NCBI GenBank assembly: GCA_020532545.1
Contig: JAJBAW010000013.1
Coordinates: 1 to 57,635 of the forward strand
DNA length: 57,635 nt
Source: Candidatus Cloacimonadota bacterium
Lineage (GTDB): Bacteria > Cloacimonadota > Cloacimonadia > Cloacimonadales > Cloacimonadaceae
Direction of reading: 5' to 3'
A model generated the notes under the pieces. The model was not told the origin of the DNA, did not search any database, and worked only from the letters and a program-made list of their open reading frames with translations. Shown here piece after piece: positions 47,384-57,635 of this stretch; the first letter of the stretch is position 1, and the number at the start of each line of letters is the position of its first letter. The position numbers were made by a program, and so were the translations under genes.

Positions 47384-48198
47384 TAAGCCTTGGCTCCTTT
47401 CTTTCTTTTCAGCACTTTCATCGCGGAAAGGCTGGCTTTCTTCACTCTGGCATTGCCACTTTTGGTCCAAAGCTCAACTTCTTTGTAGATCTCGGGATCG
47501 TAATCCACGATGGCAGCGCAAAGCAGCTCCACGATCTGAGGATCGCGGGAGATGCCAAATTCCTTCCAGGTAGCCTGATAGGCCTCTGGATTCAGCTTGG
47601 CAATGGCTTTCAGCAAGAGCACATGGAGGCCCAAAGTTTCTCCCAAAGGATAGGCCCATTGATTTTGAAAATGACTAAGCACCTGGGGAATCAGCTCTTC
47701 GCTGCGCTTGATCAATTTCAAGCAAAGATTGGTGGCTGCCCAGGCGATCTCTTCTTTCTCACTTTTGGTCCATTGCAGTACTTTTTCCAGATATAATTCG
47801 GGTTTTTTCCGGGTCAATGAAAGCATCACTTTATCCAGCAGAGCATTGATCTCAGAGGTATTGCCATGGTGCATCATCTCTTCCAAAAGCGGGAGGTAGA
47901 CCTCAGGCTTTTTATTGATGAGCTTGGAGACGATAGTACCAAAAGCAAGCTTGCCGTAATCCTCATTCTTCAGCCACAAATGCCGGTAAAACGGGATGTA
48001 GTCAAGGTGTTTCTTGCCGATATTCCTGACCAATATTCCGCTGACAAAGGTGATAACTTCGGAGGGTATCTTACCATTGACCCGTTCCGGATATGCGATA
48101 AATATGATCTCAAAATCATAATCTTTCTTGGGCAGTTTGTGCATTAGATAATCTTCTGTATCTAAGGTTAGCCGTTCTTTCCAGTCTATGGTAAGCAT
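47383..48198 (-). CDS. HEAT-like helical repeat protein
   Basis: A 271-residue all-helical protein of repeated pairs (VYLPLLEEMMHHGNTSEINAL, ELYLEKVLQWTKSEKEEIAWAATNLCLKLI in parts), suggesting HEAT/ARM or DNA alkylation repeat (AlkD-like) folds, with a basic end RKKGAKA. Catalytic residues of AlkD cannot be confirmed. AGGAG 7 bases upstream supports ATG 48198. Coupled to greA. Confidence 0.65.
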   Translation of the reverse strand: MLTIDWKERLTLDTEDYLMHKLPKKDYDFEIIFIAYPERVNGKIPSEVITFVSGILVRNIGKKHLDYIPFYRHLWLKNEDYGKLAFGTIVSKLINKKPEVYLPLLEEMMHHGNTSEINALLDKVMLSLTRKKPELYLEKVLQWTKSEKEEIAWAATNLCLKLIKRSEELIPQVLSHFQNQWAYPLGETLGLHVLLLKAIAKLNPEAYQATWKEFGISRDPQIVELLCAAIVDYDPEIYKEVELWTKSGNARVKKASLSAMKVLKRKKGAKA

Positions 48199-48237
48199 CT
48201 ATATCTCCTATAATTACATAATTTTTCTATTTTCTGC

Positions 48238-48266
48238 ATAATCGCATAAGACTACAATACTGTCAA
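48238..48266 (-). promoter_or_regulatory. Promoter of the HEAT-greA operon
   Basis: TTGACA at 48266-48261, an exact 17-base spacer and GATTAT at 48243-48238 on the minus strand, about 40 bases before the start codon at 48198. One of the two best promoter matches in the window. Confidence 0.6.
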
Positions 48267-48581
48267 GCGAAATATGTAAAAGTGCATAGATTCGCCGTAT
48301 CTTTTGTGACGCTACAAGTTTTGGGGCTGTGAGGTCTCAGCCAAAATGCTAGCCATAAAAGCTTTCCATGGCGTTGGCCTCAGCCGGCGGTGCCGTTGAA
48401 TATGATGGGCAGAGGAGCTTGTATTATTTGCGGTATTCTGTTCTCTCAAAATCGGCTAAAGCCAGTGCAACGACCGGATAAATCCAGCAGTACTCTTGTG
48501 CACGCGCCGGCTGAAACCAGCGCCACGGTGGTGCAACGGCCTTGAATGCAAACTGTAGTCTTACTTGTCTGTTTAACTTGC

Positions 48582-48649
48582 TTTTAACGGGTGTTCGACT
48601 CGAATTGACTCGAAATCTCAAGTCAACTCGAGTCGAACACCCGTTAAAA
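48582..48649. repeat. ACTCGAA hairpin family, copy 3 (29-bp stem)
   Basis: 48582-48610 pairs with 48621-48649 over 29 bases with a single A.C mismatch, across the 10-base loop CGAAATCTCA. The stem contains TTCGACTCGAATT, shared with 17755-17767, and the element ends GTTAAAAC, as copy 1 does at 17804-17811. No T run follows on either strand beyond the stem ends. Confidence 0.75.
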
Positions 48650-48722
48650 CCGTGTGGATGTATCAGCTAAGAACCCGGCAAGTCAGGGCGGAACGGAGTC
48701 CGCCCCAACGATAATCGATAAA

Positions 48723-48754
48723 CGTTAAAACGTTAAAACGCTAAAACGTTAAAA
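48723..48754. repeat. Four tandem CGTTAAAA octamers
   Basis: CGTTAAAA, CGTTAAAA, CGCTAAAA and CGTTAAAA occur back to back, eight bases before the stop codon of the secreted-protein gene. The octamer echoes the CGTTAAAA end of the hairpin at 48582-48649. Confidence 0.8.
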
Positions 48755-48761
48755 CCCCAAG

Positions 48762-51515
48762 CTACTTGATTCTAAGTATCTTGGTAATCTTGGTGGTTTC
48801 GGCATCGGCAATCCTGGCGAAGTAAACACCTTGTGCCACAGACTGACCTTTCTCATCATTACCGTTCCAGGTGACTTGGCCGAAGCCGCTATTGGCATAA
48901 AGCTGCAGGCTCTTAACTTTCTGTCCTTTGACATTATAGATGTCGATCTTTACATGCTGATTCACGGGTGATTTCACCTTGAGCGAGATTGTATCAGTAA
49001 AGGGATTGGGGTAGCAGCTTATAGACAGCGCTGCTGGCACGATCACAGGGTCATCGGTGGAAATGGGAGCTATGCTGCCCTGAAGATGCCAGAAGGCAGT
49101 CCCCAAGGGCGAAGTCTTGGCCCATAGCACTGCATGCAGGATGCCGGGCTCGGGGTTGCTGAGCACGATTCGGGAGTCAGACAAGGAGTCTGAGGCAAAA
49201 TCGGCAGGCAGAGGCAGGGTGTCTGTATTGGAAAGGAAATTGCCATTTTCATCCAGGCGGATCAAAGTGGCGGCATTGCCGTTGGCTCCCGGAATCACAT
49301 AGAGAAATCCATCCAGGATGCGATGCAGAGAGATATAATCCGGGGCATGTGTGTAGGGCGTTTGATGGATGACGTTTGTGCTGCTATGCTCCAGGTTTGA
49401 AATCAACAGAGCGTGGGATTGGCCACCTTCATTGTCCTCTCTTTGCAGGGTGATTAAGTGGTCATTGGGCAGGAGCTTGGCCTGGACTATCTCCCAATCA
49501 TCCGGTAGATCTTGAGGATAGGCTGCCTCATCTGTAAACAGGGTATTGTTCAAATGATAGAGAAACTCCCCGCCATAGTAGTCCATGGATTTATAGATTA
49601 CCGGTTCATTGAGTTTGTGCCATTTGACCACTGAGCCAGGGTTATCAAAGCTCACAGATTCAGAGATCAGAGCACCCAAGCCCCACACATCATTGCTGGG
49701 CATATTATCAAAGCTGCGAGGATCATAGCGATGCGCTCTTTTGTAGCCCACTCCGGCTCCGGCAGCTCCTGGGTAATTTCTGGGTTGAAGACCTAACTGT
49801 AAGCCAAACACGGGATCTGTAAGCGGATTGGGGCTCACAGGACCTCCGCACTTATCCAGATCTATATCCCAGATGCCGCTGGGGTATTCACCATCGCTAT
49901 ACGATCTGTGCATGAAGCCTGCTCGTTCCTGGTATAGTGAACCCCAAAGATTCATGGTTCCTCTTTCCAGGTAAGGTGCTGCTTCCGGCCAGAGGGGGTT
50001 GTACCAGGGATAGTCTATTTGGGAAGGCCAGGGATTTATTGCGGTCTGAGGATAATGTCTGCGATGCAGGTCTATATTGTCAAAATAGTGGGATTCACCC
50101 GCAATATCCATATTCACAGCGGGCACGGATGGATGCGGATGCTGGTATTCAAAGCTGAACATTCCGGAGCGACGCGCATTCGCAGCATCTTTATGCAGTG
50201 CGATGAGATCCGCATAGATGAAAATGCCGCCACCGAAGGGTTCCATATAATCGCTATCACTTCCCAGATTTGGATGTATTCTCAGAGAATCTGCCGGATT
50301 CTTATAGCCATATTTGATGATGATTTGCTTATCGCTGATCAGGGTCACCTTGTCCGCAGCGTTATAGGGATCAAGAGGTGATGATCCGACTGGTGTGCCA
50401 CTGAGCAAGATATCTCCGATCAGATAGATATCAGAATCGCAATAGATGCTCCTCTGGCCAGAGAAAGTGCCTTTGAGCCAGAGCGTTCCTTTCACGTGGA
50501 GCTTTTCGGGCAATAGCCCTCCCGAGATGGGGGTCCAGATAGTATCCCGGACGGTGAAACTATTGCGGTACAAGAGTGTGCCTCCTAAACTGGGATAGGG
50601 ATCATACACATCTGCATAAACACGGCGAGGCACGGAAAGGGTGCCCAGCCAGCCAGAGTAAGAGCCTCCCTCGACCTCCAGCAGCAGTATGTAATCATCG
50701 TTGTCCAAGGGGCCAAGAGACTCCGCCTGAGCCATAAAATCTTGTTTAAACAGAGTTAGATTGGGCCGGAATAGTGCCGGATCCGCATTTTCGATCAGTC
50801 CGCCTTGGAAAACCTGATCCACGGGAAAGTTACTGGGAGTGCTGAGCACCTGTCCGGAGATTGTAACAGGCCCCAGGAACGTAGGCCACCCGCCATTGTT
50901 CCCACCGCCAATTTGTTTAATGTACATATCGGAGTTTATCAGCACAGGTCCCTCAATCACATCATAGCTAGAATAATAAATGTTTGTGTCATTCATTGAT
51001 TTGTGTTTGTTCGTAAAACTTTCGTAAACGGCGTTATCCTGGGATTTCACAGTGAAATTTCTAATCCCTGCATCTGTGAGTGACATCAAAGGATAGGGGT
51101 CATTGCTATTGATCAAGCTTGCGGCCAGCACATTAGAAGTCCACGTGCTCCCGCAATTTTCCGAGATACATTGATACATATAATCGATGCCTTTTACCAG
51201 AATGGTGATCTTGGGCAGATCAACCACCAGGCTGGGGGCTCCGGGATCCGAGCTGATGAAGAAATCAACATAGCCTAGCACTACGGAACTGTGGGTATCG
51301 CCATGGCTTGATTTTGTGAAGTTCAATAAAGAATAATTATCGTCTGCCCTGGATAGATAGGCGATGTAGATGGTGTCTCCCACCGCCTGGGTGGCAGGTT
51401 CACCAGCGAAGCTGACAGCAGCATTGCCGATAGGATTTGGGGTGTCCTCCCAAGTAATGGCAAAGACACTGCAAAACATTAGCGTCAGAACGACGAAACT
51501 AAATACATGCTTCAT
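48762..51515 (-). CDS. Large secreted protein with T9SS/FlgD-type C-terminal domain
   Basis: A 917-residue exported protein. Signal peptide KHVFSFVVLTLMFCSVFA, a large beta-rich body with parallel-beta-like passages (LHVKGTLWLKGTFSGQ, IYCDSDIYLIGDILLSG) and a C-terminal 85-residue domain: SISCYPNPFTDTISLKV, VKIDIYNVKGQKVKSL, QVTWNGNDEKGQSVAQGVYFARI. That ending is the FlgD-Ig / type A T9SS sorting pattern used for secretion and surface attachment. No T9SS machinery gene is in the window. ATG 51515 has AAGGAGG 6 bases upstream. Confidence 0.85.
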   Translation of the reverse strand: MKHVFSFVVLTLMFCSVFAITWEDTPNPIGNAAVSFAGEPATQAVGDTIYIAYLSRADDNYSLLNFTKSSHGDTHSSVVLGYVDFFISSDPGAPSLVVDLPKITILVKGIDYMYQCISENCGSTWTSNVLAASLINSNDPYPLMSLTDAGIRNFTVKSQDNAVYESFTNKHKSMNDTNIYYSSYDVIEGPVLINSDMYIKQIGGGNNGGWPTFLGPVTISGQVLSTPSNFPVDQVFQGGLIENADPALFRPNLTLFKQDFMAQAESLGPLDNDDYILLLEVEGGSYSGWLGTLSVPRRVYADVYDPYPSLGGTLLYRNSFTVRDTIWTPISGGLLPEKLHVKGTLWLKGTFSGQRSIYCDSDIYLIGDILLSGTPVGSSPLDPYNAADKVTLISDKQIIIKYGYKNPADSLRIHPNLGSDSDYMEPFGGGIFIYADLIALHKDAANARRSGMFSFEYQHPHPSVPAVNMDIAGESHYFDNIDLHRRHYPQTAINPWPSQIDYPWYNPLWPEAAPYLERGTMNLWGSLYQERAGFMHRSYSDGEYPSGIWDIDLDKCGGPVSPNPLTDPVFGLQLGLQPRNYPGAAGAGVGYKRAHRYDPRSFDNMPSNDVWGLGALISESVSFDNPGSVVKWHKLNEPVIYKSMDYYGGEFLYHLNNTLFTDEAAYPQDLPDDWEIVQAKLLPNDHLITLQREDNEGGQSHALLISNLEHSSTNVIHQTPYTHAPDYISLHRILDGFLYVIPGANGNAATLIRLDENGNFLSNTDTLPLPADFASDSLSDSRIVLSNPEPGILHAVLWAKTSPLGTAFWHLQGSIAPISTDDPVIVPAALSISCYPNPFTDTISLKVKSPVNQHVKIDIYNVKGQKVKSLQLYANSGFGQVTWNGNDEKGQSVAQGVYFARIADAETTKITKILRIK

Positions 51516-51828
51516 AATAAACCTCCTTATTCGAAGCTTCAAAGCCACGACTGACATAATATTATCGTGTGGATATAGTGAATTGCAATATTCGTTCCAT
51601 AAGTGAGGAAGCTTTCCGTCCTATAACTTGTTTTATAACACCAATCTGGCTTGGGCAGAGGGATTGCAGGCAATTGAACTTGAATATAAGTATATTAAAA
51701 AAGTAAGAGCAGGTTTAAATATCTAATAATTCAGATAACAAGCCCCTGCTATCCGAATCCGGATCAGCGACTTTGCAAAACTATCCGGATTGGATGCGTC
51801 TCGCGTCCAGTCAACCAAAGTTACCCTA
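51516..51828. promoter_or_regulatory. Intergenic region with putative promoter of the secreted-protein gene
   Basis: On the minus strand TTGCAA (51588-51583) is followed after 17 bases by ATAATA (51565-51560), about 45 bases before the start codon. Nothing else is recognisable in these 313 bases. Confidence 0.4.
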
Positions 51829-52587
51829 TCAGGCTTCTTTTGTGGCCACCCAACCCTGGAAATCCAGAGGTAACTTGCTAAAGCCACCCTTCTCTACGAC
51901 TTTGGTGGTGCCGGGATCGTCCGAAAAGAGATAGAGATAGTTTTGAGAGAGGCCGCGATGGTAATCTACCAGATGGTTTATCATGGCGCCACCAAAGCCT
52001 TTGCCCCGGAATTTCTCTCGGGTAAAGATGTCCGAAGCCCTGCTGTAGCCCGCATAGGTGCTCACCGAGGCCAAAGCTGCCAATTCGCCGTTACAGAATC
52101 CAGCCAAAAGATGGTAGGAAGGATGTTGCAGATGGCGCTCCACCACTTTGATGGTGGAATCTGTGCCGTATTCCAGGACGATGGTTTCCATCATATCGAT
52201 ATCCAGATGTCTCACGCGCTGAATGATGAGTTCACTTGCCGAACGCAGACTGCCTTCATGATCATGGAGGAGATACTCCTCCTGCATGATTTGAATATTA
52301 AAACCATGGTTTTCCAGGCTGGGGCTAAGCTTGGTGAGTTCATCCGGATCCAGTGCCGAAAAGATGCAAGGATTGATGCCCTTGGCTTTGTAAAATGATT
52401 CAATGTCGCGGATGCTGCTTTCAATGCCGATAAAATCTTTGATCACAGCATGGTTACTTTCTTGGGAGTTTTTGTTACCTTCATTGAAAAAGATCAGACC
52501 GTAGTCTTTCTGTTGCATACTGGCAAAACGTTGGGGATAGAGTAATTCCGTCTCTTTCAAACGGTTCATGTTAAAAGGTATCGCCAT
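51829..52587 (-). CDS. GNAT family N-acetyltransferase
   Basis: A 252-residue acetyl-CoA-dependent transferase. The N-terminal half is a degenerate GNAT-like or lead-in domain. The C-terminal half has the acetyl-CoA loop in FTREKFRGKGFGGAMINHLV, preceded by LLAGFCNGELAALASVS, and a final strand FSKLPLDFQGWVA. The substrate is unknown. ATG 52587 is chosen: AGAGG lies 8 bases upstream. It is downstream of the ECF transporter operon with a 96-base gap. Confidence 0.8.
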   Translation of the reverse strand: MAIPFNMNRLKETELLYPQRFASMQQKDYGLIFFNEGNKNSQESNHAVIKDFIGIESSIRDIESFYKAKGINPCIFSALDPDELTKLSPSLENHGFNIQIMQEEYLLHDHEGSLRSASELIIQRVRHLDIDMMETIVLEYGTDSTIKVVERHLQHPSYHLLAGFCNGELAALASVSTYAGYSRASDIFTREKFRGKGFGGAMINHLVDYHRGLSQNYLYLFSDDPGTTKVVEKGGFSKLPLDFQGWVATKEA

Positions 52588-52683
52588 CTTGTCCACCTCT
52601 TGATTTTATTTGCAGCTTATGATAGTATAAGCTGTTTAATGTCAAGGGCAAGCTCAGCTTGCAGGGCTGGGAATTCAGAGGGT

Positions 52684-53154
52684 TTAAGAGAGTTCCTCGA
52701 TCTTGGTATAAGCGGCAAAGAGCAATCTTCCGCCCACAAAGCCAAAACCGGCCTGCAAGAGATTGGCAGGAAGCTCGGCCAAAGCCACTGCCTTGCCAAA
52801 GCTGGGCATGATCCAGGTGCCTGCAAAATACACCGTGACCATCAGCACTGCACCGATCATAGGCCAGATACTGCGCATCCATTTGCCTGCGGATTTGCCC
52901 ATGCCGGCAAAAAGTCCCAATAGAGCCTTCGCCACCAGGGTGATGGGTGCAAAGAGCGGAAAGCCGATAAGATCTGCCAGGGCAGAGCCCAAGCCACCTG
53001 CGATCAAGGCACTTTTGCGGCCTGCATAGAGTCCACAAAACACGATCACGACATCCCCAAAATTAAAGTAGCCGCCTCCGGGGATGGGAATGCGGATGAG
53101 CAGAGTGGTGACCATCACCAGGATGGTGAATCCGACCGTAAAATACCATTTCAT
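52684..53154 (-). CDS. ECF transporter S component (substrate-binding)
   Basis: A 156-residue integral membrane protein with about five to six helices: IRIPIPGGGYFNFGDVVIVFCGLYAG in parts, followed by GGLGSALADLIGFPLFAPITLVAK and a C-terminal FVGGRLLFAAY helix. This is the layout of ECF S components that bind vitamins or related micronutrients. The identity of the ligand cannot be read. AAGGAG 5 bases upstream sets the start; it overlaps the T-component stop by 4 bases. Confidence 0.85.
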   Translation of the reverse strand: MKWYFTVGFTILVMVTTLLIRIPIPGGGYFNFGDVVIVFCGLYAGRKSALIAGGLGSALADLIGFPLFAPITLVAKALLGLFAGMGKSAGKWMRSIWPMIGAVLMVTVYFAGTWIMPSFGKAVALAELPANLLQAGFGFVGGRLLFAAYTKIEELS

Positions 53155-53765
53155 TTGAGCTCCTTATGACAGTTTTCAATGAGATTATCGATTCTTTCGC
53201 CTTTGCTTTCGGCTTCGGCGAGCGTGAATAGCACCAAGCCTAAGGTGCTGGCCAGGGCACGTTTGAAGCGCTCTCTAAAGCCCTTTGGCTTTTGCCTCAT
53301 GCCGGGGCTGAGCTCCTGCCACATTTTGATCTGGGCATAGGAGTGAAAGGCCGCATCATACAGAATCTTGCCCAGAATCAGATACTTGGTCTTGTGAATA
53401 CCCAAGCCCGAACGGATGAGATCATCTACACAGACATAGGCGAAACACAGGCGAAAAGCCAAAATCGAACTGAGTAAAAGCAGCACCCGGGGCAGTCCAT
53501 ACTGCAGCCAATAATCCAGAGGCACAGTAGCTTGCGGGCTGATGCCAAAGAGGATAAAGATGGCATAAACCGCAGACAGCATCAGCACAAAGGGCAAGAG
53601 AATCTTTAGCTGCTGCCCAACTTTGCGGATGCCCAAGAGAGCCAGGGAAAGCAGCAGAGTAATGCCCAAAGCTGCGCCTTGCAAAGGGATATTGTGCAGC
53701 CACAGAATGCCAAAGAGGATGCAGTACACAAGGAAGACCAATGAAGCTAAAATCAGCTTAAGCAT
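53151..53765 (-). CDS. ECF transporter T component (EcfT)
   Basis: A 204-residue transmembrane coupling protein with about five helices in the first 150 residues and a cytoplasmic C-terminal part (KMWQELSPGMRQKPKGFRERFKRAL) that carries the coupling helices gripping the ATPases. It joins the S component to the ATPase pair. The C-terminal RIDNLIENCHKELK tail is short. It overlaps the upstream ATPase gene by 8 bases and the S gene by 4. Confidence 0.85.
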   Translation of the reverse strand: MLKLILASLVFLVYCILFGILWLHNIPLQGAALGITLLLSLALLGIRKVGQQLKILLPFVLMLSAVYAIFILFGISPQATVPLDYWLQYGLPRVLLLLSSILAFRLCFAYVCVDDLIRSGLGIHKTKYLILGKILYDAAFHSYAQIKMWQELSPGMRQKPKGFRERFKRALASTLGLVLFTLAEAESKGERIDNLIENCHKELK

Positions 53766-54246
53766 GGATCACAGTCTCCTGAGTACTCACCTGGACAAAC
53801 TCCAGAATCTGCGCCGCTTCCAATTGATAGCGGTGAGAGCTGTAGATCAAACAGAGGGGTCTCTGCAGGTCTTGGGGAATATCCAAATTGTAAGCCTCAT
53901 CCGCGATCACATAGACCGGCAGCTCGTCCTGCCTTTCGGCCAAATCCTGCCACAGATAGCGCCAGACATCGCCTTCCTCACGGATCGCAAAACCCGGTTT
54001 GAAGATCGCCGCCTGAGCCTTCAAAGCATAGAGTTGCAAGTGCATCTGCTGCTGCAAACACAGCACATAGAGGTCTTTTCTACCGTTAAGCTCGGGAAGC
54101 AAAACGCGGTGGATAAAGCTGCTTTTCCCGCTGCCATTGGCACCTTTGAGATAGTAGCTTGCACCGGGCTGGAAAAGGAGGGGTTTGTCTATAGCAAGGG
54201 TAAATCCCGGCCAGATCTCTCTTTTCCCTGCGGGCAGAGTGATCAT
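53758..54246 (-). CDS. ECF ATPase with Walker A/B but no LSGGQ signature
   Basis: A 162-residue ABC ATPase, much shorter than the usual 220-280. Present: Walker A GANGSGKS (35-42), Q-loop glutamines (65-67), Walker B with catalytic Glu VYVIADEA (111-118) and an H-switch histidine in IYSSHRY (138). Absent: the LSGGQ signature and most of the helical subdomain. Its operon partner has the signature but no Walker A, so together they could build one working ATP site. Overlaps both neighbours (8 and 4 bases). Confidence 0.8.
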   Translation of the reverse strand: MITLPAGKREIWPGFTLAIDKPLLFQPGASYYLKGANGSGKSSFIHRVLLPELNGRKDLYVLCLQQQMHLQLYALKAQAAIFKPGFAIREEGDVWRYLWQDLAERQDELPVYVIADEAYNLDIPQDLQRPLCLIYSSHRYQLEAAQILEFVQVSTQETVIHA

Positions 54247-54599
54247 GAGGGGTCCCTCAGCAAAATCTCTTTGTCACACTGTTTGATTAAGTCCAGGATT
54301 TGCAGGGCTATAGCTTCATCCAGGGAGTGAGTCAGGTGCCGGAATTCTATTCTGGGAGCAGGTGAATACAGCGCCAGGAGCGCCATCAAGACCACTTTCT
54401 GGCCTCCGGACAAGGCGTCCAATTTGTCGTCCTGGTTTAGCTTTTTAGCAGTGATACGTTCAAATTCGGCAAAGAGCCGGGCACTTTCCTTTGCGCCCAG
54501 ATTGTACAGAATGATCTCATCGCGCACAGCGTCTGTGCACACCAGGGGATGCTGACCATCTGCAATTAAATAGCTCTTTTTTGAATCCATAAAAATCAT
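54243..54599 (-). CDS. ECF ATPase half with LSGGQ but no Walker A
   Basis: A 118-residue partial ABC ATPase, read from ATG 54599. It begins near the Q-loop and keeps TDAVRDEIILYNLG, the signature DALSGGQKVVLMALLAL and a D-loop-like HSLDEA, but the residues that should form Walker B read RIEFRHLT, and there is no Walker A and no H-switch. It cannot bind ATP like a normal NBD by itself but could supply LSGGQ to the partner encoded next. TTG 54626 is an alternative start; that TTG is inside a TTGACA. ATG 54590 lies 36 bases from the TTGACA start, as for the lptE-like gene. Confidence 0.75.
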   Translation of the reverse strand: MIFMDSKKSYLIADGQHPLVCTDAVRDEIILYNLGAKESARLFAEFERITAKKLNQDDKLDALSGGQKVVLMALLALYSPAPRIEFRHLTHSLDEAIALQILDLIKQCDKEILLRDPS

Positions 54600-54620
54600 C
54601 TGCCCAGAAAGAGGAGCTTT

Positions 54621-54626
54621 TGTCAA
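54621..54626 (-). promoter_or_regulatory. TTGACA box before the ECF operon
   Basis: A perfect TTGACA on the minus strand precedes the first ECF gene by 21 bases to ATG 54599 and 30 bases to ATG 54590 (gap counts). No good -10 match lies at the right spacing, so promoter status is uncertain. No riboswitch is recognised upstream. Confidence 0.25.
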
Positions 54627-54696
54627 GCGAATCTGTAAAAATCGGCATTCATCCAGTGTACCCAGGACTTGATTCCGGGTTCTTGCCGCATGAGAT

Positions 54697-54759
54697 GTCG
54701 TGGAGATGACGTGGAGATAAGAGGATTTTATCCTGCTATCTGCACGTCATCTTCACGAC
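54697..54759. repeat. Long hairpin upstream of the ECF operon
   Basis: 54697-54719 pairs with 54737-54759 over 23 bases with two mismatches (stem contains AGATGACGTG). The loop includes AGGAT and ATCCT, which can pair again. It lies in the 250-base gap between the pentapeptide gene and the ECF operon. No T run follows, so a terminator is not obvious. Confidence 0.6.
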
Positions 54760-54878
54760 AACAAACGGGGATCAATGGAGAATGGGGTACGTGGCGCTGT
54801 CTTCAGACGGCGCGTGTCGGAGTAATTACTTGATAATTAAGGATTTAGTGTAAGATCGGACTCCATCTGCGGTCCAAT

Positions 54879-55448
54879 CTACACCAGCTTAATCCCCATA
54901 CATTCCAGCAGGGCCACTGCATCCGGCAGGCTAAAGCTGGCATTCTTGATGTTGTTATTCAGCGGATTGATCGCATAGCCATGGGCACCGTTGAACTTGG
55001 CTTTGCTGAGATTGGTATTATTGAAGCTGACGCTGCTGAAGCTCGTGCCGATGAAATTGCTTTCGGCAAGGTTGGACCCAATGAAGTCCGTTTCAATGAT
55101 TTCGCAGTCTTTAAAGCGGGTTTTCTTCAGTTCCAGGAAGTTAAAATTGCAGCTACGCAGCAGGCATCCGGAAAAGCCAATGCCGAAGCCCAGGGTATTG
55201 CAGCGCGTGAAATCCACCCCCACCAGCTTAGAAGTTTCGAACTTTACCCCTTGCAGCTTGGCGTCCTGAAAGGAGGTCAGCGAGAGATTGCAATCCTTAA
55301 ACACACAGCTATCCAGGATACCATCAAAGCGAAGACCAGAGAAATCACAGCTTTCAAAGCGGATATGGGTGAAATTGCGCCCCATCAGGCACAGTTCATC
55401 CAGGTCCTTTATCGTTTGGTTTTCAATATCTTCCAGATAATCTGTCAT
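54879..55448 (-). CDS. Pentapeptide repeat protein
   Basis: A 189-residue protein built of A(D/N)Lxx-type pentapeptides: FESCDFSGLRFDGILDSCVFKDCNL in parts, then DFIGSNLAESNFIGTSF and NTNLSKAKFNGAHG, forming a right-handed quadrilateral beta-helix. Some family members (Qnr, MfpA) mimic DNA and bind gyrase; no such role can be claimed here. ATG 55448 is preferred, with AGGAG 9 bases upstream; ATG 55457 and 55454 are crowded by it. Confidence 0.85.
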   Translation of the reverse strand: MTDYLEDIENQTIKDLDELCLMGRNFTHIRFESCDFSGLRFDGILDSCVFKDCNLSLTSFQDAKLQGVKFETSKLVGVDFTRCNTLGFGIGFSGCLLRSCNFNFLELKKTRFKDCEIIETDFIGSNLAESNFIGTSFSSVSFNNTNLSKAKFNGAHGYAINPLNNNIKNASFSLPDAVALLECMGIKLV

Positions 55449-55529
55449 GCTCATCATCTCCTGCTTAATCTTTACAAAGCATATTTATCAGGCAGGGCTA
55501 CAGGTCAAGCAGATTATTATCCGGGTGTT

Positions 55530-55934
55530 GAAGCACTGGACTATTTCAGGATCATAGCCCTGATAAACCGGCCTTTCGCCTCATTCAACCCGGATACCCC
55601 AGGGGTTATGGTGGGGAATGTCGTCAGCATTGGCCAGCCCTCCCAAAGCCTGCATTTGGGCATGGCGTACGGATGGCAAAAAGCAGAGAACTTTGATGCA
55701 CCCTTGTTCTTTGTGGGAGGCCGGAAAAATCTGAGCAGCAAAGTGGCTATGATGGCAGAATACGGAAGCCCGATCGGCTCGAATGATGGCACGGTGAAAT
55801 CCCTGGCCAGTTTTGGTATCCGCTTTAGCAGCGATACGATGAGCTGGGATCTGGGTGGAGTCCGTCCTGAAGGCGTGGACATGGGTAATATGAACTTTTT
55901 CCCAGTGCTCAAGGCTACGTTCGAATTCAATTAG
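55530..55934 (+). pseudogene. C-terminal fragment of a barrel-like outer-membrane protein
   Basis: An open frame ends with strands that look like an outer-membrane beta-barrel terminus: SLHLGMAYGWQKAENFDAPL, VAMMAEYGSP, SLASFGIRFSSDTMSWDLGG and the final FFPVLKATFEFN, with the last aromatic residue one before the end. No start with a ribosome site is present (an ATG occurs at 55608), and the frame runs back into the antisense of the pentapeptide gene. Interpreted as a 5'-truncated gene. Confidence 0.55.
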
Positions 55935-56010
55935 TTTTATTTAGCCCAGAGCTGCCCTGCTCAAATTGCTGACGTAACGGATAATCTGAGAAAGTTTTTT
56001 GCGATTTCGC

Positions 56011-56037
56011 TTGACATAGATTTGGACTTAATAAATA
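56011..56037 (+). promoter_or_regulatory. Putative promoter of the tandem secreted-protein genes
   Basis: TTGACA at 56011-56016 and TAAATA at 56032-56037 with a 15-base spacer, 39 bases before the start codon at 56077. The spacer is short, so confidence is limited. Confidence 0.4.
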
Positions 56038-56076
56038 GATGGTTTAATGATAATATTACTACTTGGGAGTAGCAAG

Positions 56077-56682
56077 ATGAAACGTATCTTCGGTCTTATG
56101 TTTATTGTCACACTATGCTCGATGCTCAATGCCGTGGGTGGTCGCTTAGCTTTTGGTATGGATACTTTTGGAGAACTATATACAATTAACGCAGCTCTCC
56201 GCATTGGTCAGGTAGATCCCATGGCGCCCACTGTATCAATTCAAGTAATGCAGCAGATCAAAAACCTCAGCTTGGGAGCTGGTGCAGATTACCATTTTAA
56301 CCGGAATGCCAATCTTCCCGAAGGGTTTGAATCCGTTTGGGGGAAGCACAGTTTTCTACCCATATATGGAAGCTTTGCCTACAATATACCCACCTATGGC
56401 AGCCTGAAACCTCAATTGATAGCAAAGCTTGGGCATAGTTTTCCAAAATTCAGCTTTCCTTTTAATGATGAGGATGAAAAGTATAGCTCTTCGGGCGGAG
56501 CGTTTTATGGAGCCGGGATAGGCCTGGATTATAGACAATCTTCTTTACAAGTGATGTATCAGACTCATGAAATGAAAGTAAAGAATTCTGAGTATTATGA
56601 TGGAAGCTGGGAAGATGACTACGAGAATTTTATGGTAGCACGCCAGCTCAACATATCCCTTGGCTTTAAGTTTGGAAACTAA
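56077..56682 (+). CDS. Barrel-like secreted protein, paralogue 1
   Basis: A 201-residue exported protein: signal KRIFGLMFIVTLCSMLNA, then a beta-strand-rich body including GRLAFGMDTFGELY, LGAGADYHFN, FLPIYGSFAYNIPTYG, AFYGAGIGLDYRQSSLQVMYQ in parts and the end RQLNISLGFKFGN. Predicted outer-membrane beta-barrel. ATG 56077 has GGGAG 7 bases upstream. It is the first of a tandem pair with 56720-57337, sharing the same strand order and ending. No family can be named. Confidence 0.75.
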   Translation: MKRIFGLMFIVTLCSMLNAVGGRLAFGMDTFGELYTINAALRIGQVDPMAPTVSIQVMQQIKNLSLGAGADYHFNRNANLPEGFESVWGKHSFLPIYGSFAYNIPTYGSLKPQLIAKLGHSFPKFSFPFNDEDEKYSSSGGAFYGAGIGLDYRQSSLQVMYQTHEMKVKNSEYYDGSWEDDYENFMVARQLNISLGFKFGN

Positions 56683-56719
56683 ACAGATAGTAAATATATA
56701 ATATATTTAGGAGTTTACA

Positions 56720-57337
56720 ATGAGATACTTTGCCAGTCTTACTTTGCTAATCATGTTTTGCACCTGCCTGAGCGCGGTAGGCTTCCGTGTGGCTGTGGGC
56801 GTAGATGCTTTGGGCGAATTCCAGAGTACAACGTCACATTTTCAAGCGGGAGTCAAAAACCAGGAGGCACCCACGGTCTCGGCACAGATAGTCAATGACT
56901 TCAAGCATTTGTCTTATGGGCTGGGGGCGGATTACCAATTTCCGCGCAGCAATAAAAAGCTACCCGAAGGTTGGAGGAGCGATCTTAAGGAAATGTCCTT
57001 CATCCCGATCTATGCTACTGTGCTATACAAGATCCCCACGAAAGAGCAAGTCTCGCACGATTTTATCGGCCAATATGGCTACAGCATTGCCAGGATGGAT
57101 TTCGATCCTGAAGATCCTGAATTTCCTGACGAACGCTACTCTTACAAGGGCGGCTGGTTCATGGGACTGGGGACAAGCGTGAATTATAAGGGAGGTTTCT
57201 TCAGCCTGCTATTCAAGGTCAATCAAGTGGAGATTACTAACGAAGAGTTTGAGGATGGTGTTTGGGTGAATGAAGGCACGTACCATTCCTATATCCGCCA
57301 ATTAAACGCCTCCATAGGTTATAGGTTTGGGATTTAA
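56720..57337 (+). CDS. Barrel-like secreted protein, paralogue 2
   Basis: A 205-residue homologue of the previous gene: signal RYFASLTLLIMFCTCLSA, then RVAVGVDALGEFQS, LSYGLGADYQFPRS, MSFIPIYATVLYKIPT, WFMGLGTSVNYKGGFFSLLFKVNQVEI in parts and RQLNASIGYRFGI. The shared blocks (V/M-D-x-x-GE, GLGADY, PIY...Y-IPT, RQLN-S-G-xFG) show tandem duplication followed by strong divergence. The stop is at 57337; no further gene is visible to the end of the window (57338-57635). Confidence 0.75.
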   Translation: MRYFASLTLLIMFCTCLSAVGFRVAVGVDALGEFQSTTSHFQAGVKNQEAPTVSAQIVNDFKHLSYGLGADYQFPRSNKKLPEGWRSDLKEMSFIPIYATVLYKIPTKEQVSHDFIGQYGYSIARMDFDPEDPEFPDERYSYKGGWFMGLGTSVNYKGGFFSLLFKVNQVEITNEEFEDGVWVNEGTYHSYIRQLNASIGYRFGI

Positions 57338-57635
57338 GTCTTTCCCTGCATAAGAAAGCTAGCCGGAGCTTCACCATCGTCACTAATAGTACATCATTGC
57401 TGGCGCAGTGTTTTACCTGGACAGGGCACTTATAGCCCTACGGCATTTTATATGCAAATTGAAAGGACAGCAGGTATTCGCTATATTCCAGAGCTGAACT
57501 CAAAAGCACTTTTCACGCATCCCCCCGAAATTTTCCAAGCCAACCTTGTAGATGCTTGATAGGAGCGGTTTGGCACCCGATAAGTGCTTGAAAAAGTAGT
57601 TACGAATATTGGCAACATCTTGGTATATATGTAGA

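Follow-up and report, generated by a model that had tools for sequence, protein, structure and literature searches.

A four-gene operon, carried by 36 of the 124 Cloacimonadota genomes searched (33 belong to family f1 and three to another), encodes two short ATPases, P1 and P2, that divide the motifs of one ABC ATP site strictly between them, together with a putative membrane scaffold (T) and an S component. On the strength of these sequences we consider it probable that the operon specifies a dedicated, ECF-derived importer, driven by a 1:1 P1-P2 motor with one ATP site and descended from full-length ECF ATPases. The operon was analysed in a window of 57,635 nt, positions 1 to 57,635 of contig JAJBAW010000013.1 (GCA_020532545.1) of a Candidatus Cloacimonadota bacterium. 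Its genes lie on the minus strand in the order P1, P2, T, S, and all four overlap, as the first-pass annotation had stated: by 4 nt (P1/P2), 8 nt (P2/T) and 4 nt (T/S).

Partition of the ATP-site motifs between P1 and P2

Both short ORFs are found where they had first been placed, on the minus strand and with open reading frames. P1 (54243..54599, 118 aa) was recognised as an ORF and, by profile comparison, as a truncated NBD of ECF type that carries the LSGGQ half of a site. It extends from about the Q-loop strand through the helical region and the signature to a dead Walker B strand and the D-loop; the 118 residues are counted from the ATG at 54599, and the start used by a close relative corresponds to 54590. 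P2 (53758..54246, 162 aa), recognised in the same way, is an NBD core that carries the Walker A half and is without recognisable signature or D-loop. A scan of genome contigs for relatives returned only L040, a close relative of the window locus with 83% identity in P2.

In the window, P1 carries LSGGQ (residues 63-67, 54399..54413) and the D-loop SLD (residues 92-94, 54318..54326), both on the minus strand; it has no Walker A, and alignment to canonical ATPases puts R87-H88 in the place of the Walker B Asp-Glu. P2, on the same strand, carries the Walker A GANGSGKSS (residues 35-43, 54118..54144), LQQQ at the Q-loop (Gln66, 54049..54051), VIADE with Walker B Asp116 and catalytic Glu117 (53896..53901) and SSH with the switch His138 (53833..53835), and an LSGGQ-like motif is absent from it. 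These inventories agree with the initial description of both proteins, in which P2 had kept Walker A, the Q-loop, the Walker B Glu and the H-switch and had no LSGGQ, and P1 had kept LSGGQ and a D-loop and had neither Walker A nor a Walker B acid. Pfam gave no match for window P1 at E up to 1, and window P2 reached 13.6 bits against ABC_tran, where the cut-off is 25, with sub-threshold P-loop matches only.

The same partition is seen in every relative aligned. Motifs were counted over 36 rows (L009-L037 and L072-L078), leaving out L038 because it comes from the same genome (G048) as L075 and its P1 lacks a start at a contig end. P2 residues G35, N37, G38, G40, K41, Q66, D116, E117 and H138 are invariant (36/36), and a motif script run on the 36 loci found a signature pattern in P2 in a single case, ISSGS upstream of Walker A in L031. 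P1 has LSGG in 36/36, followed by Gln in 33 and Glu in three, and a Walker A pattern in 0/36. Its Walker B Asp column is acidic in none of the 36; its catalytic Glu column holds Asp (14), Asn (17), His (four) or Ala (one) and never Glu, and its Q-loop position, which was placed by eye, holds Asp (24), Asn (eight), Ser (two) or Glu (two) and never Gln. The D-loop is kept in P1 (L93 in 36/36, D94 in 32/36), and no conserved D-loop was seen among the P2 residues that follow Asp-Glu in the 36 aligned loci. Nor is there a conserved His at the C-terminal end of P1, where some His occurs in the last 15 residues in 14/36 loci, unaligned to the switch; this absence across the 36 loci suggests that P1 has lost the switch His.

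Each ATP in an ABC dimer lies between two chains, one of which supplies Walker A, the Q-loop, Walker B and the His while its partner contributes the signature and the D-loop, and the motifs of P1 and P2 are thus divided as one composite site requires. Between them the two proteins supply Walker A, Q, signature, Walker B, D-loop and His once each (D94 in 32/36), and two A units that each have Walker A, Walker B and signature are absent, all 36 loci being partitioned. The first-pass annotation had proposed checking whether LSGGQ and Walker A remain separate in relatives, and they do so in 36/36 loci. Its argument that the losses are complementary holds as well: P1 has given up the Q-loop Gln and the Walker B acids that P2 retains, and P2 shows no sign of the P1 D-loop. 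Its larger claim, that the pair could form exactly one working site, stands as far as complementary halves are concerned, which are partitioned in 36/36 and kept by selection; that such a site would form and be active is what we infer from them.

TAP and CFTR are heterodimeric ABC transporters with one degenerate site, and in transporters of this kind both NBDs are full length. Across the 36 loci the operon has, as far as sequence goes, an extreme form of this asymmetry, with one consensus site and one site without catalytic residues. TM287/288 and BmrCD (PMC5216877) similarly have two unlike NBDs with one consensus site, and the degenerate site of such transporters still binds nucleotide (PMC5216877); the operon differs in that its sequence is without the second-site parts.

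There is also a likeness to SMC/Rad50 heads, whose Walker A and LSGGQ are likewise set apart in the sequence, and the P1 profile matches SMC C-lobes and the P2 profile Rad50 N-lobes. In SMC/Rad50, however, the signature lobe also carries Walker B and joins the other lobe in a single complete head, whereas in the operon Walker B goes with Walker A, on a different protein from the signature.

Relation to canonical ECF ATPases and to a fused double NBD

Profile comparison makes P1 and P2 homologues of ECF ATPases and of opposite halves of a degenerate double NBD. The canonical reference comprised 14 full-length Cloacimonadota ECF ATPases, and the hhalign E-values, which come from single comparisons, are rough. 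P1 aligned with the C-terminal part of canonical EcfA, from the pre-helical region to beyond the D-loop (E 8e-8, 94 columns), and the P2 alignment runs through the NBD (E 3e-11, 148 columns): Walker A, Q, Walker B and His coincide with those of EcfA, and the EcfA signature has no counterpart in P2.

The degenerate double NBD came to light through the S profile, which matched in 38 of 124 genomes, including G102 and G103 of a third family (f11). In G102, T and S are preceded by one fused 461-aa double NBD with both halves full length (L092, reverse complement 195-1577); the copy in G103 (L093) is cut by the contig end. As judged by eye, the first half keeps LSGGE and the D-loop WLD but no longer has Walker A, the Q-loop Gln or the His, and HG stands where Walker B would have DE; the second half keeps the P-loop, Q, LDEP, D-loop and SH, with LSFAE in place of the signature. 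In the P-loop of this second half, the first Gly of Walker A is replaced by Ala in G102 and present in G103. P1 matches the first half (E 1.5e-8, 104 columns, against 0.13 for the second) and P2 the second half (6e-6 over 35 columns around Walker A only, against 0.2 for the first). Both halves match canonical ECF ATPases better than they match P1 and P2 (E 6e-16 and 3e-21).

Like the operon, then, the f11 locus has an LSGG-containing half and next a Walker A half ahead of T and a related S; unlike P1 and P2, its NBDs are full length and fused. Its T has no detectable relation to the operon T (hhalign E 0.12), and so has either been replaced or diverged past detection. Close matches of the G102 protein (E up to 1e-25, 124 genomes) were two further fused double NBDs, in G052 and G088, which by contrast, read by eye, have lost none of Walker A, Walker B and His from either half. 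In the S tree, 31 of the 36 operon S rows together with G102 and G103 are split from ten non-phylum S proteins by a branch of 97/91, although branches are long and the order inside the operon/G102/G103 side is unsure. We read G102 as a stage at which point changes had already killed one site while the parts no longer needed had not yet been removed; it is also possible that complementary degeneration arose independently in G102 and in the operon. Full-length EcfA at this locus, which the first-pass annotation had held to count against its reading, was found in none of the carrier loci examined (mostly with 1.5 kb flanks), and the only full-length version found next to a related S, that of G102, is itself complementarily degenerate.

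The same parts could be assembled differently, with P1 as helical lobe and P2 as core of one NBD, two of which would give a two-site motor, (P1P2)2. P1 and P2 together do hold one of each motif, the stoichiometry is not fixed by sequence alone, and BioMNY uses a single kind of A unit (PMC3246461). However, P1 keeps its own strand in the Walker B place, its D-loop and the next strand (F86 in 31/36, L93 in 36/36, I112 in 33/36); since P2 also has these retained parts, the two proteins overlap and do not complete one fold. The likely counterparts in G102, moreover, are two full NBDs in one chain. We therefore think it unlikely that P1 and P2 are pieces of a split NBD.

The one-site arrangement that we prefer would work as follows. 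The four genes would encode a dedicated, group I-like, ECF-derived importer in which S would bind a small nutrient, T would serve as membrane scaffold, and P1 and P2 would pair 1:1 as a heterodimeric motor that has a single composite ATP site. Mg-ATP would be bound by P2 through Walker A, the Q-loop Gln, the Walker B Asp, the catalytic Glu and the His, P1 would close onto P2 via LSGGQ and the D-loop, and closure and hydrolysis would be transmitted to T and then to S, as in ECF transporters. One account of ECF transporters (PMC10368641) describes how ATP binding closes the ATPase dimer, reshapes the coupling helices and expels S, in 1:1:1:1 complexes, and mentions earlier reports of other stoichiometries; the most economical reading is that the same cycle would run with one ATP between the Walker A of P2 and the LSGGQ of P1. 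The ancestor would have had two full-length ECF ATPases, one site of which would first have died by point changes, the state of G102, and the parts serving only the dead site would have been deleted afterwards. We infer the complex, its stoichiometry, hydrolysis, transport and this direction of evolution from the motifs and homologies described here. AlphaFold2 models built on two-sequence alignments (window and L040) were unusable, with mean pLDDT of 44.4 for P1 and 45.5 for P2.

On balance we lean towards seeing here an ABC motor with half-NBDs of about 118 and 162 residues, its second site deleted and a full-length relative recording the prior step. If this is true, an ECF importer can be powered from a single ATP site, and a natural one-site ECF motor would reveal what an NBD can do without after a site has been abandoned. 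The f11 fused relative may then point to a route by which a two-site motor became a one-site motor and finally a pair of half-NBDs. In what seems to be a vitamin-type importer of little-studied bacteria, P1 and P2 may provide a naturally occurring, exceptionally compact form of a motor that is widespread in biology. We recognised no description of half-site or split ECF ATPases in the literature when judging by titles and the start of abstracts, in a search covering few subscription papers and no preprints.

Separately, the signature varies among canonical ECF ATPases of the phylum. The canonical second ECF ATPase of the window's own genome (L041 3299-3871) is short, at 191 aa, and has LSQGS for LSGGQ, and other canonical first ATPases have LSFGQ, LSYGQ, LSEGW or LSIGW. 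Signature drift may be common in these proteins.

Membrane components and other ECF modules

The first-pass annotation had placed the two ATPases in one operon with S and T components, and the S label is the firmer of the two. The S component (52684..53154, minus strand, 156 aa) matches PF07155, a known ECF S family (E 1.6e-21), and a profile of 21 S rows matches chain S of 4hzu (E 4.2e-13), which was deposited under the name "predicted membrane protein" and which we take to be the hydroxymethylpyrimidine S unit. T (53151..53765, minus strand, 204 aa) is assigned as a candidate EcfT-like membrane scaffold from its position, its co-occurrence with the other genes, T-S fusions and a weak EcfT profile match. 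Its label is weaker: the CbiQ/EcfT model PF02361 matched 0 of 22 T rows at E up to 1, in a scan that omitted the fusions, three f10 rows and L024. Compared with 13 canonical EcfT, a 36-row T profile scored 38.1 (E 7e-5), a value reached by none of 40 column shuffles (maximum 18.2) nor by the reversed alignment (13.8); S, P1 and P2 scored 17.0, 12.8 and 10.9 against the same EcfT profile. The confident part of the match is confined to 74 columns in the first half of T, and weakly suggests that T is EcfT-like.

Near its C-terminal end T carries (K/R/Q)-G throughout family f1: a pattern found it in 32 of the 33 rows, and in L018 it was seen by eye. In the window it reads SKG (53199..53207, minus strand). 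This motif, Lys-Gly in most rows, may be a remnant of one X-Arg-X anchor, although the alignment is poor there, and the first of the two anchors was recognised in none of the T rows. According to the BioMNY study (PMC3246461), BioN-BioM crosslinks lie in the region after the Q-loop. P2 is without most of that region, and the loss of one T anchor would therefore fit an asymmetric motor.

In ten loci (L018-L021, L027, L030, L032-L035) T and S are a single protein of 363-366 aa, a natural EcfT-S-like fusion, and the S parts of these fusions cluster in the S tree. Outside the phylum, S homologues were found in 12 of 386 genomes searched, and ten of the 12 loci were taken further. An ORF with a P-loop pattern stood in three of the ten, and because P-loop and signature occurred together in none, these S proteins are probably of the shared type, as judged with a crude motif script whose own S pattern found no S genes and with one locus reaching 1.9 kb on one side.

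CbiMNQO is a dedicated-module (group I) ECF transporter. The operon resembles group I in keeping A, A, T and S genes together, as the BioMNY study describes (PMC3246461), and it resembles ECF transporters in its S, a PF07155 protein similar to 4hzu chain S, and in P1 and P2, each of which is homologous to part of an ECF ATPase. It differs from group I in that each ATPase is without the half-site of the other, and in a T that misses the CbiQ model and has one possible anchor motif recognised. Because it has neither a CbiQ-type T nor complete motifs in each A unit, the operon is best described from its sequences as ECF-derived and not as an ordinary ECF member.

A second ECF module is present in the window's own genome, where the one CbiQ match lies beside two full ATPases and another S-like gene, and CbiQ matches occur in 25 of the 33 f1 genomes that carry the operon. 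P1 and P2 might then be regulatory, or a non-hydrolysing scaffold, and the full-length ATPases of the other module might power the operon's T and S. A second complete ATPase pair had been named at the outset as a possible objection; such a pair exists in the window's own genome, but it has its own T and S, and the operon too has its own T. Eight of the 33 carriers have no CbiQ match, five of them at least 90% complete, and borrowed ATPases are therefore unlikely as a general solution, with the qualification that the CbiQ count would miss any T that, like the operon T, escapes the CbiQ model. Furthermore, none of the 36 loci departs from the Walker A, Walker B Asp-Glu or His of P2, which is unlike a dead scaffold. 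We regard a regulatory or scaffold role as improbable. TIGR04520, tried as a marker for canonical ECF ATPases, was not discriminating, with 0 of 8 genomes over the cut-off.

Distribution and purifying selection

Strong matches to the P1 profile (29 rows) were found in 33 of the 124 genomes (E 3.9e-31 or better), and the same 33 gave strong matches to the P2 profile (30 rows; 1.1e-39 or better) and the T profile (22 rows). All belong to the window's own family, f1, of which 49 genomes were sampled; the remaining 16, several of them incomplete, gave no match to P1, P2 (strong) or T. A diverged four-gene operon is found in G086-G088, of another family, where P2 (E 1.4e-9 to 9e-11) and T match their profiles and P1, missed by the P1 profile, was placed by position and then by profile comparison. 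With hhalign, this operon matches that of family f1 with E-values of 2e-7 (P1), 1.7e-12 (P2) and 6e-16 (T), and homologues of T are confined to exactly the 36 carriers among the 124 genomes. Another 23 genomes gave weak matches to the P1 profile (E 6e-6 at best) and another 49 to the P2 profile (9e-6 at best); these were taken for ordinary ABC or other P-loop proteins, most of them lying in longer frames. The sole P2-profile match outside the phylum (G150; 289 genomes, E up to 1e-6) proved to be an ordinary 311-aa ABC ATPase, and of 599 and 47 pattern-matching stretches in viral contigs none codes a relative.

The window's own genome is rich in ABC ATPases, with 44 matches to PF00005, and P1 and P2 might be unpaired and each complete its site with some other ABC protein. 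The P1 and P2 matches adjoin in each of the 33 genomes, however, and among the 124 no strong P1 match occurs without P2, or the reverse, which makes such separate partnerships very improbable.

P1 and P2 are under purifying selection. An in-house Nei-Gojobori script gave dN/dS of 0.05-0.32 in 14 comparisons, seven pairs for each protein, and the operon is accordingly not decaying; its conservation in 36 genomes excludes chance and decay. The proposal in the first-pass annotation that selection rather than decay had shaped the losses is thus borne out by these ratios and by the same motifs and frames across the 36 genomes. Pseudogenes, frameshift or assembly error, which short ORFs with missing motifs might bring to mind, can be dismissed, as gene order, motifs and open frames are alike in 36 genomes, G001 is a single contig and dN/dS lies at 0.05-0.32.

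Some features of the surrounding DNA may be recorded. An Rfam scan of 48000-57635 at E up to 1 found no riboswitch and only six sub-threshold matches of miRNA type. Two intergenic inverted repeats were seen by eye at 48573-48659 and 54696-54760, with no further 14-mer copies in the window. Directly upstream of the operon, 54879-55457 encodes a pentapeptide-repeat protein, and two ORFs next to each other, 56047-56682 and 56720-57337, of similar length and sequence and with signal-like starts, are, judged by eye, probably paralogous envelope proteins.
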